Source: Bacteroidota bacterium (GTDB taxonomy: Bacteria > Bacteroidota > Ignavibacteria > Kapaibacteriales > UBA2268). Taken from it: a stretch of DNA of 32,664 bases. The stretch is taken from assembly GCA_022707965.1 (NCBI GenBank), contig JAKIZO010000006.1, positions 309 to 32,972 of the forward strand. The letters are read 5' to 3'. The first letter of the stretch is position 1; every line of letters starts with the position of its first letter. The notes beneath the pieces were generated by a model. The model saw nothing but the letters and a program-made list of their open reading frames with translations, made no database searches and was not told where the DNA came from. Of the stretch, positions 563 through 21,737 are shown piece after piece. Both the position numbers and the translations under genes were made by a program.

Positions 563-1765
563 TCAAATTGTTTTATGGTCAAATCCTTCAATATATTGCG
601 TTACAAAGTCCTTTGGCAGTTTGCGTTTTTTGATTTTATTGACCCTGAAATAAAACAAAGTACTGTATAGAATTGTTTGAACTATCATTATTGTTAGTTC
701 ATTTATTGCAAAATATAATGAATTTTGCATTTGTGTAACTTTCATTATCGCTTGCAAAAACGGAACGAGTGGAAATAGATAAGAGAAGTATTTGATAGCT
801 TCTAACAATTGATTTTGTGGCCAGGCAAATCCCGTGAGCATAAAAAACGGATAGCTTGTAAAACCAAGAATTACAAAAACTGTAATTCTATGCTTGAAAA
901 ATGTCCCGACAAATAATCCAAATGAAGCAGATGCCGCTATTCCAAGTGTGGCAATTAATAGTTTGCTTGCAAGAGTGCTCTGGTATCCTATGTGATAAAA
1001 TGGAGCAAGAAATATAAAATAAATAAGTGCATAAATAATAAAAAATAAGATATAAGAAATCAGTTTACCCGCCGTAATCAAGCTAATGTTTCTTGAAACA
1101 AGAAATTGGTCGCGCCAATTATTCATTCCCCATTCCTTCGCTTGGGAAGCGGCAACGCCGATAAAAATAATCTGAGAAATAATAATTATCAAGAGACCAG
1201 GAAGTATTAAATCTCCATAGGTTAAATAAGGATTAAAGAGATATTGGAAATTAATTTTAACGGGCTGCGCATATCCAATCTCTTGAAGAACAGGTGTCCC
1301 CTTTTTCATAAGAGCGGAAGCTGTAACCTTAGCGCCATAGGTTGTAACAATTTGCGAAATAGGCAGACCAATATCGCTCAGTACCAACAACCTTCCTGGA
1401 TTAATCAGAAGCTGGACAGATGTCTTTCTACCATATTTCAGATTTTCAGAAAAATTCTGCGGGATAATAATAGCTCCGTGAATGTTTTCTTTTGCCATCT
1501 CTTTTATTATTTCATCTTCGGAGTGCAATATTTGTGTTACAGCAATGTTTTGGTGAGCATCAATTTCACGGACCAAACTGCGGGATAAATTCGTGTTGTC
1601 TCTATCAAGAACTGCTATTGGGACGTTTTCTTCTGCTTTGTGCAAATATATTGCCCCATAAAGTAGAGGATAAGCAATTGGCGCAACAAAGAAAATTAAT
1701 GCAAGATTTCTGTCCAGAAAGACTTTTCTTAATTCTCTTTTTATGATAGATAATAACTCTTTCAT
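563..1765 (-). CDS. ABC-2 type transporter permease (second of pair)
   Basis: A 400-residue inner-membrane protein with the YhhJ/YbhS/YbhR layout. One membrane helix (about 21-41) is followed by a long extracytoplasmic domain (about 42-180) ending in a FNPYLTY stretch, then about five more helices (roughly 185-207, 232-256, 268-290, 294-312, 355-376). Proteins of this family form the membrane channel of tripartite exporters for drugs or other small molecules. The start is fixed by tight coupling: the ATG follows the stop of the upstream permease with one base between. It is the last gene of the tetR-tolC-hlyD-permease-permease operon. The pair is not a duplication in tandem at the sequence level but shares the same architecture. 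No nucleotide-binding domain is fused to it. The substrate cannot be told from sequence. Confidence 0.9.
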   Translation of the reverse strand: MKELLSIIKRELRKVFLDRNLALIFFVAPIAYPLLYGAIYLHKAEENVPIAVLDRDNTNLSRSLVREIDAHQNIAVTQILHSEDEIIKEMAKENIHGAIIIPQNFSENLKYGRKTSVQLLINPGRLLVLSDIGLPISQIVTTYGAKVTASALMKKGTPVLQEIGYAQPVKINFQYLFNPYLTYGDLILPGLLIIIISQIIFIGVAASQAKEWGMNNWRDQFLVSRNISLITAGKLISYILFFIIYALIYFIFLAPFYHIGYQSTLASKLLIATLGIAASASFGLFVGTFFKHRITVFVILGFTSYPFFMLTGFAWPQNQLLEAIKYFSYLFPLVPFLQAIMKVTQMQNSLYFAINELTIMIVQTILYSTLFYFRVNKIKKRKLPKDFVTQYIEGFDHKTI

Positions 1766-1766
1766 A

Positions 1767-2972
1767 TTATTTAGTAACCGAATTTATTTCACGTCTTTGA
1801 AATACTTCACGGAACCAATCTCTCATTTTGCTTCCGACTGAACCCATCAAAATAATAATCAATGCCCAAATGACTAATGCAATGATTGTTAATTGAACGT
1901 AGCCGCGTTCGGGGTTGGAGCCAAAAAGAAATAATGGGAAGAAAGCTTCAAGATAATGAGTAAGTGGTATCAACTCGGCGAATTTGCTAATTGCTTCTGG
2001 CATAGCCCAACGTGGAAATGTATAACCACTGAATACAAAAGATGGTGCGTTTATTACTAAAAGTGCTTGGGCAGCAGTAACCAAATTCGATAAAATAAGC
2101 GATAGAAATGAGCCCATTCCAATTGAAGCAATGATATATAAATTCGTAAGCAAAATTATTTTGCCATATCCAGTGTTGATTGGTATTCCGAGAAGCGGGA
2201 AAAATACAGAGAATAAAATTACAGCAGCCATCAAAGAGAGCAAATAAATTGGTGTTAATCGTGCTAATAACCAAGGTGTTTTATAACCTTTTCGAGGTGT
2301 TATTCGACCTGGTGCTGTTTCTTTTTCCTCGCGAAATACCCATATTGCCGCAAAACTGCAAGACATTTGCAATATAGATAATAGCATTCCCGGAAGCAAA
2401 TAAATCGCGTAATTAAAATAAGGATTGCCAGGAGCGAAAATATCGGTAATTATAGGCGTTGCACGAAGAGAGGCTTCTTTCTTGCTAAATCCTTTATCGA
2501 CAAGTCTTCTAATCTGAATGTTTTTTGATTCGTCGAGCAAAACTTGTGCTATTGCTTTATATAGCACTTTACTATATATCATATTAAATCCATTTACGAC
2601 AATATCAGTGCTACCACCTTTTCCTTGTTTGATTTTTTTAGTAAAGTCAGGTTCGAAAATAATTGTCGCAAATGATTTGTTGCTTTTGATTAAACTATCT
2701 GCTATAGACTTATCGTTTGTAACGAGAGCAACACAGACAGATTCGACCGCATCTAATTTATTAGTAATTGCACGTGTAAGTTCAGAACCATCATAATCAA
2801 CTACCACAACGGGAACCTCCACTACATCCCCATTGACAAATGCTATGCTCAACACACTCCAAGCAAGCAGCGGCATAAGAAAAGCAATTACGGCAACGTG
2901 CGGTCGCCTCTTCAATTTCCGAGTTTCATTAATCAAAAAATAATTATATAGAAACCAAAAATTTCTTCTCAT
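1767..2972 (-). CDS. ABC-2 type transporter permease (first of pair)
   Basis: A 401-residue membrane protein with the same plan as its downstream neighbour. A basic N-terminus is followed by a helix (about 26-46), a periplasmic domain (about 47-185) with the family's NPYFNY motif near 183-188, and a C-terminal block of five or so helices. The domain after helix 1 begins with a VPVVVVDYDGS strand, as in YbhR-like permeases. The ATG overlaps the hlyD stop in an ATGA tetramer, so the two are translationally coupled. Expected to pair with the next permease as a heterodimer. Such permeases normally need an ABC ATPase (YbhF type), and none is encoded between or beside these genes, so the ATPase must come from elsewhere or the complex works differently. 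Confidence 0.9.
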   Translation of the reverse strand: MRRNFWFLYNYFLINETRKLKRRPHVAVIAFLMPLLAWSVLSIAFVNGDVVEVPVVVVDYDGSELTRAITNKLDAVESVCVALVTNDKSIADSLIKSNKSFATIIFEPDFTKKIKQGKGGSTDIVVNGFNMIYSKVLYKAIAQVLLDESKNIQIRRLVDKGFSKKEASLRATPIITDIFAPGNPYFNYAIYLLPGMLLSILQMSCSFAAIWVFREEKETAPGRITPRKGYKTPWLLARLTPIYLLSLMAAVILFSVFFPLLGIPINTGYGKIILLTNLYIIASIGMGSFLSLILSNLVTAAQALLVINAPSFVFSGYTFPRWAMPEAISKFAELIPLTHYLEAFFPLFLFGSNPERGYVQLTIIALVIWALIIILMGSVGSKMRDWFREVFQRREINSVTK

Positions 2973-3967
2973 TTTTTATTTTTCTTTGGAATAGTGAAAC
3001 GAACTGTCATTCCGGGGCGGAGCGATTGAATTTTGTTTTCAACTGGCTTCAACTTAACAGTAAATGAGCGAGTTTCGAAAGTTGCTTTATCCGCACTAAT
3101 TCTCCAATTAGCATAATCAGCCATAGCGGAGAAATTTACAACTTTGAATTTTGTATTAATTCCCAGTCCGTCAATCCTTCCAGCCAACACGTCGCCAATT
3201 TTAATATTTTCAAGTTCAAGTGCAGGCAGGTTCAGTTCGACCCACACATCTTTTGGGTCAATAATTGTAATTCCGGGATAACCAGTTGCAACAAGTTCCC
3301 CTGCGTCAACGAACCTCTTTGAAACAATACCTGAAATTGGACTTGTAATAATCGATTCATCAAGGTATGCTGCAACTTCTTCAAGCGATTCAACTGCTCG
3401 ACGCAGCTGACCACGAGCCATATCTTTTTGCTCACTTCGCGAACCGGTAATTGCCATATCGAGTTGGGCGCGAGCAGCTTCTTTTTGAGCGCGAGCGGCA
3501 TCGTATTTTTGTTTTGCTACGTCAAAGTCCTGTGCAGATAATAATTTATCTTCAAAAAGTGCTTTCATTCTCTGAAAAGTTTTTTCTGCGAGTTCAAATT
3601 GGCTCGAAGCTGCATCAAATTGGCGACGCGCCATTTCGATTTCTTCTTTTCTTGCACCTGCAATTAACATATTCAACTGCGCGCGAGCACTTTCGACAGC
3701 ACCTTCCGCTTGAAAATACTTTGCTTTGAGTTCCCGGTCTGTGAGCTTTGCAATAGTATCGCCTACGCTAATTGCATCACCTTCGTCTACTTTAATCCAG
3801 TCAATTCTACCAGGAATTTTGGGCGAAACGTCATATTCGCGCATTTCTACTTGCCCAACACGAACGAAAGTTTTTTCCTCTTTCCCAAATGATAAAATTA
3901 CTATAATTCCAACGATAATCACTGCAATAGCAATAAAAAGCAATGTTAGAGCAGTTTTCTTTTTCAT
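2969..3967 (-). CDS. HlyD/EmrA-family periplasmic adaptor (membrane fusion protein)
   Basis: A 332-residue adaptor that would link the inner-membrane permeases to the TolC-like outer-membrane channel. It has an N-terminal membrane anchor (about 7-27), a first half lipoyl-like domain (SPKIPGRIDWIKVDEGD), and a long alpha-hairpin rich in Ala, Arg, Glu and Gln (about 75-200). The returning lipoyl half (SPISGIVSKRFVDAGE) and a beta-barrel domain follow. The hairpin carries an internal repeat: ARAQLNMLIAG...MARRQF and ARAQLDMAITG...MARGQL. A clear AAAGGAG lies 6 bases before the ATG. The gene starts 15 bases after tolC and overlaps the next permease by 4 bases. Confidence 0.93.
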   Translation of the reverse strand: MKKKTALTLLFIAIAVIIVGIIVILSFGKEEKTFVRVGQVEMREYDVSPKIPGRIDWIKVDEGDAISVGDTIAKLTDRELKAKYFQAEGAVESARAQLNMLIAGARKEEIEMARRQFDAASSQFELAEKTFQRMKALFEDKLLSAQDFDVAKQKYDAARAQKEAARAQLDMAITGSRSEQKDMARGQLRRAVESLEEVAAYLDESIITSPISGIVSKRFVDAGELVATGYPGITIIDPKDVWVELNLPALELENIKIGDVLAGRIDGLGINTKFKVVNFSAMADYANWRISADKATFETRSFTVKLKPVENKIQSLRPGMTVRFTIPKKNKK

Positions 3968-3982
3968 TTTATCTCCTTTATA

Positions 3983-5431
3983 TTAATTATTCTTTTCCCA
4001 AATATTTAGAAAATAATCGTTATTATTAATTATCTTACAGATTTGAACAAGATTGGAGTAATAGTCTTTCAAAGCGTTATTCCTTTTAAGCTTAATTGCT
4101 TCAAGAGAAAGTTCGGCATCGAGCACCTCAATAGATGTTCCCAGACCAGTTTCATAACGTTTTTCGTTAAGTCGTAAATTTTCAGTTGCTTGTTGAATTG
4201 CATCTTCAAGCATAAGGTAGCTATTTTCGGCAAGTTTCATTTCCATATAGTAATTTCTGACGCCAAGTTCGATTTTTCTCTCTATTTCTGCTGCTAATGC
4301 GTTGTAGCTTTCGCTTTCTGCTTTTGCAGCCTGGTAGTCGTTAGTACGGCGCATTCCGTTGAAAATAGTGAAGCTTGCGCCAATACCGACTGCCCATTTT
4401 GGGTCTATTGCCGAGCGGTAATGGTCGAATACATCATACATCCCAAAACCATAGATAGTTGGGAAATAGTTTGCCATTTCTGCTTTTGCTTTTGCATCTA
4501 ATGCTTTAGCACCATAACGAATTTGTTCGAGAAGCGGATTGTTGTTTTTTGCAATTTCAATGAAATATTCAGCATTTTGCTCAACTGTTTTGTATTGAAT
4601 TTTTTCAGCCAACTGTGAGATTTCATTATTATTCAGCAACGACGAAAGTGCAATTTTTGCAATTTTTAGTTTTTCTTCTGCTTCAAACACGTTTCTCTTT
4701 GCCTCAGATAATGCAACATCAGCGCGAAGTTTGTCGTGAGGTGCAATTAGCCCCTGTTTTAGCATTCCCTGGGCGCGTTCGTTGTGCTTTTCAATAGTTT
4801 TTAGAGCATCATATCGCACTTGCAGATTTTCTTCAGCAATTAATACATTGATATAAGCATTAATTACCTGACTGACAATTTCAGCAGTTTCAGCATCTAA
4901 TTTTTTCAGTTCAAGCTCTTTTTGTGCTCTGGAGGCATCAACCCCCGCAGAAATTTTTCCACCAGTAAAAATAGGTTGGTTAATGGTAAAAGTCGCCTTA
5001 GGAAACGCTCTTTCTTTCAGTGTTTTTTCGAATTCGGGGATAGAGTTGTTAAGTTTTTCAGTTGCACCTTGTTTGATTGCTTGTTGCTGTTCGGCTGTTA
5101 GCGGTGCACCTGTTTTCAGTAAAGCCTCTAAGTTAGAAAATCCGACTTGATTATTTGCTTGCAGGGAAATCATAGCAGAACGGATTGGGGACAAATCAAT
5201 GACAATATCCCTATCGATATAATTGTACGTGATATCAAAATTAATGTTCGGTAAGTACCGACCGTAAGCCGATTGAACATTATTGGTTTTTGCTTCTACG
5301 TTTTTCTTCGCCGCTTCAATGCCTTTGTTTGTAGAAATTGAGCGATTAATTGCTTCTTTCAATGTAAGTTGAGCATTTGCATTATTAAAAAATAGGAGCA
5401 AACCAATCAAACATAAAATTTTGTTTTTCAT
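3983..5431 (-). CDS. TolC-family outer-membrane efflux protein
   Basis: The outer-membrane channel of the export system. I start it at the ATG at 5431 (482 residues) because the protein then opens with a textbook signal peptide, MKNKILCLIGLLLFFNNANA, cleaved before QLT. The in-frame ATG at 5464 would add 11 residues and lies inside a sequence that looks like a regulator binding site. The two OEP repeats are visible: long helices rich in Ala, Glu, Lys and Asn, with the ALLKTGAPLTAEQQQ insert near the start. The second half contains NYFPTIYGFGMYDVF and ETGLGTSIEVLDAELSLEAIKLKRNNALKDYYSNLVQICKI-like features typical of the family. It is followed 15 bases later by hlyD. Confidence 0.92.
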   Translation of the reverse strand: MKNKILCLIGLLLFFNNANAQLTLKEAINRSISTNKGIEAAKKNVEAKTNNVQSAYGRYLPNINFDITYNYIDRDIVIDLSPIRSAMISLQANNQVGFSNLEALLKTGAPLTAEQQQAIKQGATEKLNNSIPEFEKTLKERAFPKATFTINQPIFTGGKISAGVDASRAQKELELKKLDAETAEIVSQVINAYINVLIAEENLQVRYDALKTIEKHNERAQGMLKQGLIAPHDKLRADVALSEAKRNVFEAEEKLKIAKIALSSLLNNNEISQLAEKIQYKTVEQNAEYFIEIAKNNNPLLEQIRYGAKALDAKAKAEMANYFPTIYGFGMYDVFDHYRSAIDPKWAVGIGASFTIFNGMRRTNDYQAAKAESESYNALAAEIERKIELGVRNYYMEMKLAENSYLMLEDAIQQATENLRLNEKRYETGLGTSIEVLDAELSLEAIKLKRNNALKDYYSNLVQICKIINNNDYFLNIWEKNN

Positions 5432-5447
5432 ATTTTTATTTCTGAAT

Positions 5448-5465
5448 AATGAACCATAATTCACT
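5448..5465. promoter_or_regulatory. Candidate TetR operator upstream of tolC
   Basis: AATGAACCATAATTCACT lies 16 bases before the preferred tolC start. Its first 16 bases are identical to the site at 6062-6077 in front of tetR. The site is an inverted repeat (AATGAA / TTCACT) with a 6-base centre and one mismatch in the arms. Position and duplication suggest a binding site for the adjacent TetR-family repressor. The assignment is inference. Confidence 0.5.
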
Positions 5466-5470
5466 TTTTT

Positions 5471-6046
5471 TTATTTAAGTCCGTAGATAATATAATTAAA
5501 CAAAGTATCGGTTAGTTCTTCTTTTGAGTAGGACAACAGATCATCTGATTTTGAAGCAATCCAGAACCAAACTCCACCAATAATAAACATAGTTGCATCC
5601 TTGGGGTTCATATCTTTTCTGAAAATATTCGCTTTTATTCCATCAGTAATTAATTCTTCGATTAATTTCTGTGAGTTCTCGACAGTTTTGGATAATTTTT
5701 CTTTTTTGTTAGAATTCCAGAAGCTATATTCATAAAGCAAGATTTTAGCGACTGATACATTTGAATAGATAAGTTCAATTATTTCACCCGTTATTTCTGC
5801 AATTTTTTGCAATGGTGTCATATTTTTTATCTTTTTCATTTCGAGAAGTTTGCTTTCAATCCGAGACCACGAACGGAGAAAAATTTCTTCGAGTATTGCT
5901 TCTTTGTTTTTGAAATACAAATAAATTGTTCCTGCTCCAATACCCGCAATTTCAGCAATTTTGCTAATTTTTGCTTTGTGAAAACCTTCACAAGCAAACA
6001 CCTGCGAAGCAGCATCCAGAATAATATCGTACTTATTATCAATCAT
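5471..6046 (-). CDS. TetR/AcrR-family transcriptional repressor
   Basis: A 191-residue regulator. The N-terminal helix-turn-helix is clear (IILDAASQVFACEGFHKAKISKIAEIAGIGAGTIYLYF-type sequence), including the GAGTIYLYFKNKE recognition helix and tail that define the family. The C-terminal ligand domain is all helical and too variable to name a ligand. I start it at the ATG at 6046, not 6088. The extra 14 residues would be read through a palindromic site, and the candidate -7 box (6086-6093) overlaps the upstream ATG, so the upstream ATG would not be in the transcript. The gene heads the efflux operon, and its stop lies 39 bases before the tolC start. It probably represses itself and the exporter until an exported compound binds. 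Confidence 0.92.
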   Translation of the reverse strand: MIDNKYDIILDAASQVFACEGFHKAKISKIAEIAGIGAGTIYLYFKNKEAILEEIFLRSWSRIESKLLEMKKIKNMTPLQKIAEITGEIIELIYSNVSVAKILLYEYSFWNSNKKEKLSKTVENSQKLIEELITDGIKANIFRKDMNPKDATMFIIGGVWFWIASKSDDLLSYSKEELTDTLFNYIIYGLK

Positions 6047-6061
6047 AAACACCAAATGAAC

Positions 6062-6079
6062 AATGAACCATAATTCATT
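6062..6079. promoter_or_regulatory. Candidate TetR operator upstream of tetR
   Basis: AATGAACCATAATTCATT is an inverted repeat with perfect 6-base arms (AATGAA / TTCATT) around CCATAA. It ends 15 bases before the tetR start and would cover the expected transcription start. A further half-site, AATGAAC, lies just beside it at 6055-6061. The same 16-base core recurs at 5448-5463. Confidence 0.55.
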
Positions 6080-6085
6080 AACGTG

Positions 6086-6093
6086 CAAAATTA
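6086..6093 (-). promoter_or_regulatory. Candidate -7 box for tetR
   Basis: On the minus strand this reads TAATTTTG, a match to the Bacteroidota TAnnTTTG -7 element. Transcription would start near 6080, at the edge of the candidate operator and upstream of the ATG at 6046. No good TTTG -33 element is seen at the usual distance, so the call is weak. Confidence 0.35.
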
Positions 6094-6246
6094 AATATTA
6101 TTTTCAGAATAAAAAAAATTTTTTCATACTTTTTGTTCTATCAGGTTCAATGGGTTCTCTTTACAAACTCGTAATCTAATCAAAAAACTATATTTATGTA
6201 ATGATACCCAAATTTTATTACGGCAATCTGATTAATAAGAATAAAA

Positions 6247-6278
6247 AACCTTCGGAAGTATGGATACTTCCGAAGGTT
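6247..6278 (-). terminator. Double-palindrome repeat, copy 2; intrinsic terminator of gcvH
   Basis: Arms AACCTTCGGAAGTAT (6247-6261) and ATACTTCCGAAGGTT (6264-6278) pair perfectly over 15 bases. On the minus strand the stem is followed by a TTTTTTATTCTTATT tract, a convincing Rho-independent terminator 35 bases after the gcvH stop. Compared with copy 1, both inner arm ends have changed together (GTT/AAC to TAT/ATA), so pairing is kept. Confidence 0.75.
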
Positions 6279-6313
6279 AGGAATTCTTTATTTGATTATT
6301 ACAGTAAAAGCGA

Positions 6314-6694
6314 TTATTTTCCAAGCATAGCTTTGTATGTTTCAACATCCATCAAAGAATCTAATTCTGCGGGATTACTCATTTCAATTTTAATCATCCA
6401 ACCTTCGCCGTAGGGGTCTTTGTTAACTATTTCGGGGTTGTCGTTGAGTGAACGATTAACTTCAACAACCTTTCCACTAACAGGTGCGAACAAATCAGCA
6501 ACAGTCTTAACTGCTTCGATAGTACCAAAGGACTGACCTGCTGATACTTCTGAAATATCATCAGGAATATCGACATAGACAACATCGCCCAATTCACCTT
6601 GTGCGTGGTCAGAAATTCCAATAGTTGCAATATTACCATCAACTTTAACCCACTCATGATCCTGAGTGTATTTTAATTCTGCGGGAAAATTCAT
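6314..6694 (-). CDS. gcvH: Glycine cleavage system H protein
   Basis: A 126-residue lipoyl carrier that shuttles the aminomethyl group between the P, T and L proteins of the glycine cleavage system. It may also serve as the entry point for lipoate. The sequence spans the full family length: KYTQDHEWVKVDGNIATIGIS at the start, a GDVVYVDIP strand, and the lipoylation loop GTIEAVKTVADLFAPVSGKV with the acceptor at Lys63. The loop reads EAVK where many homologues have ESVK. The C-terminal NPEIVNKDPYGEGWMIKIE block is intact. I chose the ATG at 6694 because TGGAG sits upstream of it; a longer frame to 6742 runs through the promoter. The gene is monocistronic here, and gcvP and gcvT are not in the window. 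Confidence 0.95.
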   Translation of the reverse strand: MNFPAELKYTQDHEWVKVDGNIATIGISDHAQGELGDVVYVDIPDDISEVSAGQSFGTIEAVKTVADLFAPVSGKVVEVNRSLNDNPEIVNKDPYGEGWMIKIEMSNPAELDSLMDVETYKAMLGK

Positions 6695-11257: not shown

Positions 11258-11293
11258 TAACCTTCGGAAGGGACGAAAACCTTCCGAAGGTTA
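11258..11293. repeat. Double-palindrome repeat, copy 3
   Basis: Arms 11258-11271 (TAACCTTCGGAAGG) and 11280-11293 pair perfectly over 14 bases around an 8-base loop, GACGAAAA. It lies 13 bases after mutB and 95 bases after the convergent symporter gene. Neither side has a good T tract, so it may act as an mRNA end stabiliser or a weak bidirectional terminator. It belongs to the same family as copies at 404, 6247 and 21707. Confidence 0.6.
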
Positions 11294-21706: not shown

Positions 21707-21737
21707 AACCTTCGGAAGGTCCCAAGCCTTTCGAAGG
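21707..21737. repeat. Double-palindrome repeat, copy 4 (degenerate)
   Basis: The left part, AACCTTCGGAAGG, matches the other copies. The right part, CCTTTCGAAGG (21727-21737), pairs with 21709-21719 at 10 of 11 positions around a TCCCAAG-like loop. It sits between the convergent M24 peptidase and glutamine synthetase genes. The T tract after it on the plus strand is broken, so terminator activity is uncertain. Confidence 0.5.

Follow-up and report, generated by a model that had tools for sequence, protein, structure and literature searches.

Two candidate operators of a FadR-like TetR-family repressor, before its own gene and before a TolC-HlyD-ABC2 exporter, in an uncultured bacterial lineage

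A 21-bp element stands twice in the 32,664-nucleotide stretch of DNA analysed here (the window), once in the leader of a TetR-family regulator gene (tetR) and once between the stop of that gene and the start of tolC, and both copies are conserved in relatives together with the two genes that they precede. The copies are very probably operators, O1 and O2, for the product of the TetR-family gene that they enclose, a repressor that would thereby gate its own synthesis and that of a TolC-HlyD-ABC2-ABC2 exporter.

The locus reads tetR, tolC, hlyD and two ABC-2 permeases on the minus strand. The first gene, tetR (5471–6046), encodes a FadR-like TetR-family repressor of 191 aa that presumably reads O1 as well as O2 and whose DNA-binding domain is recognized by Pfam TetR_N (PF00440) at 58.9 bits against a cut-off of 24. 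It is followed by tolC (3983–5431; Pfam OEP, 185.8 bits), the outer membrane efflux protein and first pump gene behind O2, by the periplasmic adaptor hlyD (2969–3967; Pfam HlyD_D23) and by ABC-2 type permeases a (1767–2972) and b (563–1765), which match ABC2_membrane_3 at 114.9 and 135.2 bits. TolC, HlyD adaptor and ABC-2 permeases, as assigned by Pfam, are the parts of a tripartite exporter of the YbhGFSR/MacAB-like kind. The best NCBIfam model of the adaptor is PRK03598, which we take to be YbhG, with a score of 145.5 bits that lies below the cut-off of 393. In Escherichia coli, the TetR-family regulator CecR (YbiH) lies beside the HlyD-ABC exporter ybhGFSR, whereas the present cluster contains tolC and no ATPase gene was seen in it. 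A simple, imperfect pattern for the ABC ATPase signature found none downstream of the exporter cassette (563–3967) or of 20 related loci (21 of 21); the pattern caught one ATPase in a control locus (L131) and missed a partial one in another (L125).

Upstream, gcvH is parted from tetR by a terminator-like hairpin (6247–6278, minus strand), one of two found by a pattern scan against 0.4 expected. This hairpin is formed by a variant of AACCTTCCGAAGGTT, a sequence also present in the window at 405–435, 11260–11291 and 21708–21720 and represented by 192 exact copies in the 2.1 Mb genome (104 forward and 88 reverse; none for the reversed control). Many of the listed copies lie in clustered pairs 18 bp apart, in the manner of a REP-like dispersed palindrome.

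The 16-mer AATGAACCATAATTCA occurs on the plus strand at 5448–5463 and 6062–6077, as the first-pass annotation had reported, and its distances to the start codons on the minus strand were also confirmed, at 16 nt to the tolC ATG (5431–5429) and 15 nt to the tetR ATG (6046–6044). The tetR copy is indeed a perfect 6-6-6 inverted repeat, AATGAA-CCATAA-TTCATT. An additional half-site had been ascribed to the tetR copy alone; the TGAA is present there (6057–6060), and a TGAA at 5443–5446 occupies the same place beside the tolC copy. Each 16-mer thus forms the core of a 21-bp element, TGAA-N6-TTCA-N3-TTCA on the minus strand (5443–5463 and 6057–6077), and the extra half-site is offset from the core by seven bases in both, giving a shared unit with one mismatch, TGAATTATGGTTCATT[G/A]TTCA. 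O1, TGAATTATGGTTCATTGTTCA, spans 6057–6077 on the minus strand, with the TGAA-N6-TTCA core at 6064–6077 and the extra TTCA (TGAA on the plus strand) at 6057–6060; O2, TGAATTATGGTTCATTATTCA, spans 5443–5463 on the same strand, with its core at 5450–5463 and its extra half-site at 5443–5446. With the extra TTCA set seven bases further down, the whole becomes an imperfect palindrome of 21 bp that can be read in two overlapping registers, so that a second dimer may be accommodated. The consensus of relatives in the class is close to TGAATAnTGATTCATTATTCA, and an exact 21-bp palindrome, TGAATAATGATTCATTATTCA, occurs at one related locus (L138/L195); O1 and O2 are imperfect forms of it. Among 90 sites, the extra TTCA stands on the start-codon side in 20 and the mirror-side TGAA in one.

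The exactness of the repeat had been offered as hard to explain except by a regulator site, and on this point the argument is weak. Among 100 copies of the window simulated with a second-order Markov model, repeated 16-mers arose by chance at a mean of 2.1 per copy and at least once in 87% of them, and the real window holds five direct and four inverted ones; the crude expectation falls to ~0.002 if ~30 leaders of 60 bases are considered, a region picked after the fact. With about two chance repeats expected per window, we rejected exactness as proof; the repeat alone carries little weight, and it is the relatives that decide. Within the window, no further copy of AATGAACCATAATTCA was found at up to three mismatches, and the 14-base core TGAACCATAATTCA occurs at two places only in the 2.1 Mb genome, both at this locus. 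At up to three mismatches, AATGAACCATAATTCATT matches 14 places in the genome (control, 2), none of them beyond O1 and O2 better than two mismatches; at one such place (C71), no homologues of the window's genes were found among the open reading frames of the longer stretch (L132).

Conservation within the genus and order bears directly on whether the repeat is a product of chance or the relic of a local duplication. The commonness of repeated 16-mers in such a window speaks for that origin, yet the flanks of the two copies are unrelated, and the copies persist as their flanks diverge: when four genomes of the same genus are compared, all 21 positions are invariant in the tolC copy and 18 of 21 in the tetR copy, as opposed to 14 and 15 of 21, respectively, in the left flanks. 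Both sites are kept in all four species examined of the window's genus and in a second genus (G034), whose TetR and TolC are 51% and 49% identical to those of the window. In this second genus, both copies bear the same changes, to TGAACGGTGATTCA.. and TGAACGTTGATTCA.., and their spacers agree at five of six positions. We assign chance or duplication a very small probability. The 21-bp pattern TGAANNNTGNTTCANNNTTCA has exactly two matches in each of five genomes (G000, G024, G025, G026 and G034), one at tetR and one at tolC each time, a single match in G006, which lies elsewhere than this locus, and none in G002. This tolC (E ≤ 1e-30) is present in six of the 123 genomes of the order, and five of the six carry both sites, so that the proposed check, whether relatives that have this operon keep the site, did not refute the regulator site. 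The sixth, G006, has the same gene order and keeps the tetR core, and O2 is absent from it.

The association extends across the class. Among 391 genomes searched, 57 encode a relative of TetR at E ≤ 1e-18; the loci of this search and further family hits gave 64 tetR loci, including both places of G366 and both of G277, in which the core was sought within 120 bp upstream of tetR. The weaker family hits L022–L040 stand outside these counts, and L022, the one looked at, is without the exact core. TGAA-N6-TTCA was found upstream of tetR in 54 of the 64 loci, and it heads the ranking of the 256 four-base palindromes at spacers of 0–14, both upstream of tetR and at the tolC junction; in the rest of the 64 loci, 20 cores occur in 457,682 bp. 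Counted over a fixed interval, the core is present at the tetR-tolC junction of 25 of the 33 loci that have tolC as the next gene, against six of 31 without a detected tolC (Fisher p 7e-6, a test that takes related genomes as independent). Where other genes lie behind tetR, the upstream site is kept and the junction site is mostly missing. Exceptions occur on both sides, the exact upstream core being missing in ten of the 64 loci and the junction site in eight of the 33 tolC-linked ones. A search from tolC gave a concordant picture, with the site in 22 of 30 loci that have a TetR upstream; tolC loci without a detected TetR number three of 33, and one of those three, too few for a test, carries the site. 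At a locus of another family (L188, in G198), the exact 21-mer of the window stands at that locus's own tolC junction. These counts, together with the five of six order genomes that carry both sites, bear out the earlier reading of the repeat as a regulator site, and a palindromic site in the promoter or leader of the regulator's own gene, kept with it in 54 of 64 loci, is what an autoregulatory site would look like.

Several observations concern individual lineages. Family f12 (L134, L137, L139, L140 and L151) has a FadR-like tetR with the upstream site and without the junction site; the next gene, 166–199 bases on, is not tolC and its product starts MNTLRNLF or similar (preceded by MGCT in L151). 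In genus g9 (L128, L129 and L130), a different gene, of ~610 aa and PAS-like by eye, stands behind tetR, and L129 and L130 have no exact core upstream of tetR. In 27 loci, the spacers of the two sites of one locus differ less than those of permuted pairs (2.26 versus 2.81, p 0.0018); this similarity was set aside as evidence, as common ancestry of the lineages can yield the same.

The same counts weigh on whether the operators, though real, are read by some other regulator, such as a global factor or the second TetR of this genome (G000:C32). The genome does encode such a second protein, TetR_N matches at E ≤ 0.001 being two in all. In 54 of 64 loci from many genera, however, some of them without tolC, the site stands beside a tetR of this particular lineage, and in five genomes the 21-bp pattern occurs at this locus alone, which makes another reader very unlikely.

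The position of O1 relative to transcription can be estimated from its flank. A putative −7 box of tetR, TAATTTTG, lies at 6086–6093 on the minus strand, 8 bp upstream of O1; it is of the Bacteroidota TANNTTTG type, and the −7 consensus and a G at −5 are described in the accessible text of PMC6847099. TANNTTTG is kept at tetR in three relatives of the same genus. Transcription of tetR is predicted to start near 6081, which would place O1 at about +5 to +25; in relatives across the class, the tetR core adjoins a TTGACA/TATTTT promoter. With the start region covered in the window and in these relatives alike, repression would follow. A sigma-70 scan was uninformative, with five promoter-like matches against 5.5 expected.

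The situation at O2 is less uniform. In the window's genus, O2 lies seven bases from the tetR stop, and neither a −7 or −10 box before O2 nor a terminator between tetR and O2 is recognizable; there, O2 may act as a roadblock or may mask a promoter located in the last part of tetR. In several relatives with a gap of 40–50 bases, terminator-like hairpins lie between tetR and the tolC site (for example L193, −18.6; L156, −14.1; L194, −12.8; L165, −11.6; L180, −8.8 kcal/mol), so that tolC is probably transcribed separately in them and would need a promoter of its own. The suggestion that tolC has its own control inside the operon thus stands as regards an operator of its own, whereas a promoter of its own is indicated by hairpins in some relatives and is invisible in the window's genus.

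The preference for the shorter starts of both proteins was also upheld. Among same-genus relatives, the reading-frame phase through the element varies, being 1 or 0 at tetR and 2 or 0 at tolC; the elements are therefore non-coding, and the likely starts are the ATGs at 6046 (tetR) and 5431 (tolC), the latter opening what is by eye a typical signal peptide, MKNKILCLIGLLLFFNNANA.

Proximity to these starts is compatible with an element that acts in RNA, as a short leader hairpin (AAUGAA..UUCAUU) controlling translation of both genes. Both copies do lie 15–16 nt before a start codon and can be folded, at −4.7 and −3.9 kcal/mol, but these stems are weak, and the core at tetR in class relatives adjoins the −10 box and would there lie at or just before the transcript start. 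Pairing, moreover, needs no fixed arm sequence, yet TGAA/TTCA tops every other palindrome, and an Rfam search of 5300–6400 gave two sub-threshold matches, neither at the sites. We consider control by an RNA hairpin extremely unlikely.

A DNA-binding repressor, the preferred reading, could work as follows. A dimer would read TGAA-N6-TTCA; bound at O1, just downstream of the tetR promoter, it would close tetR (autorepression), and bound at O2, in the tetR-tolC gap, it would shut off transcription of tolC-hlyD-abc2-abc2, whether through occlusion of a tolC promoter or as an obstacle to polymerase arriving by read-through from tetR. Two-dimer operators are known from QacR, and a second dimer may dock at the 21-bp element here as in QacR and archaeal FadR. 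A ligand would free the dimer, and the levels of repressor and exporter would then increase in step, that of the exporter by way of a gate of its own. The operators of FadR_Sa are overlapping inverted repeats that take one or two dimers, according to the available part of PMC6449355; O1 and O2 are likewise overlapping inverted repeats, although the full extra TTCA is present in only 20 of 90 sites.

Comparison with characterized proteins places the repressor near FadR. Its best solved relatives are Bacillus subtilis FadR (3whb, E 1.5e-18) and 5gp9 (E 3e-18), and its best NCBIfam match is the Bacillus-type FadR (NF053878) at 95.9 bits, under the equivalog cut-off of 200. The recognition helix of Bacillus FadR (YsiA) is nearly the same (ADGTIYLYFKNKE against GAGTIYLYFKNKE), and G..Y.Y in this helix is invariant in 64 of 64 TetR homologues; in FadR_Sa, DNA binding suffers when the matching residues Gly48, Tyr51 and Tyr53 are mutated (PMC6449355, in part). 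The operator core is also that presumed for FadR, TGAA-N6-TTCA occurring upstream of the homologue in 57 of 78 loci (L043–L120), mostly from Firmicutes with a few others. From the position of these sites, we infer that Bacillus FadR reads them; many Firmicutes sites have the form TGAATGA..TTCATTCA, with the extra half-site adjacent, whereas it lies 3 bp away in the window. The window TetR differs further from Bacillus FadR in its link to an exporter. In place of DXR, the motif through which FadR contacts CoA (PMC4155686, in part), the window TetR has NPK, so that an acyl-CoA ligand cannot be assumed for it; among the 33 aligned tolC-linked homologues, the position reads D-x-R in three and D-x-K in 12. 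Efflux genes under a FadR-like autorepressor have a precedent in the mycobacterial RaaS (Rv1219c), a TetR-family autorepressor of FadR-like fold whose operon includes genes of ATP-dependent efflux pumps under its control and which responds to oleoyl-CoA; the accessible part of the source (PMC4155686) describes no two-operator layout such as that proposed for the window locus.

Arrangements with a TetR operator before both the regulator's own gene and its efflux genes are known, and the switch is a fairly ordinary one for bacteria; no description of the TetR sites of this lineage was found in the open-access literature. It is conceivable, if somewhat doubtful, that a FadR-like lineage in Ignavibacteria and Kapabacteria has exchanged the control of fatty acids for that of a TolC-HlyD-ABC2 exporter without an ATPase, through two conserved gates, one operator for the repressor and another, separately promoted, for the pump, with a terminator between the gates in some genera. 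If this were true, the pump could answer at another threshold than the repressor, perhaps to a lipid-like metabolite. For an uncultured lineage with few known regulators, the analysis provides a testable candidate operator and a predicted two-site local regulon, and the annotation gains in that the likely start codons of tetR and tolC are fixed. More broadly, the TGAA-N6-TTCA core is common to FadR-like regulators from Firmicutes to Ignavibacteria, though the genes under their control differ.
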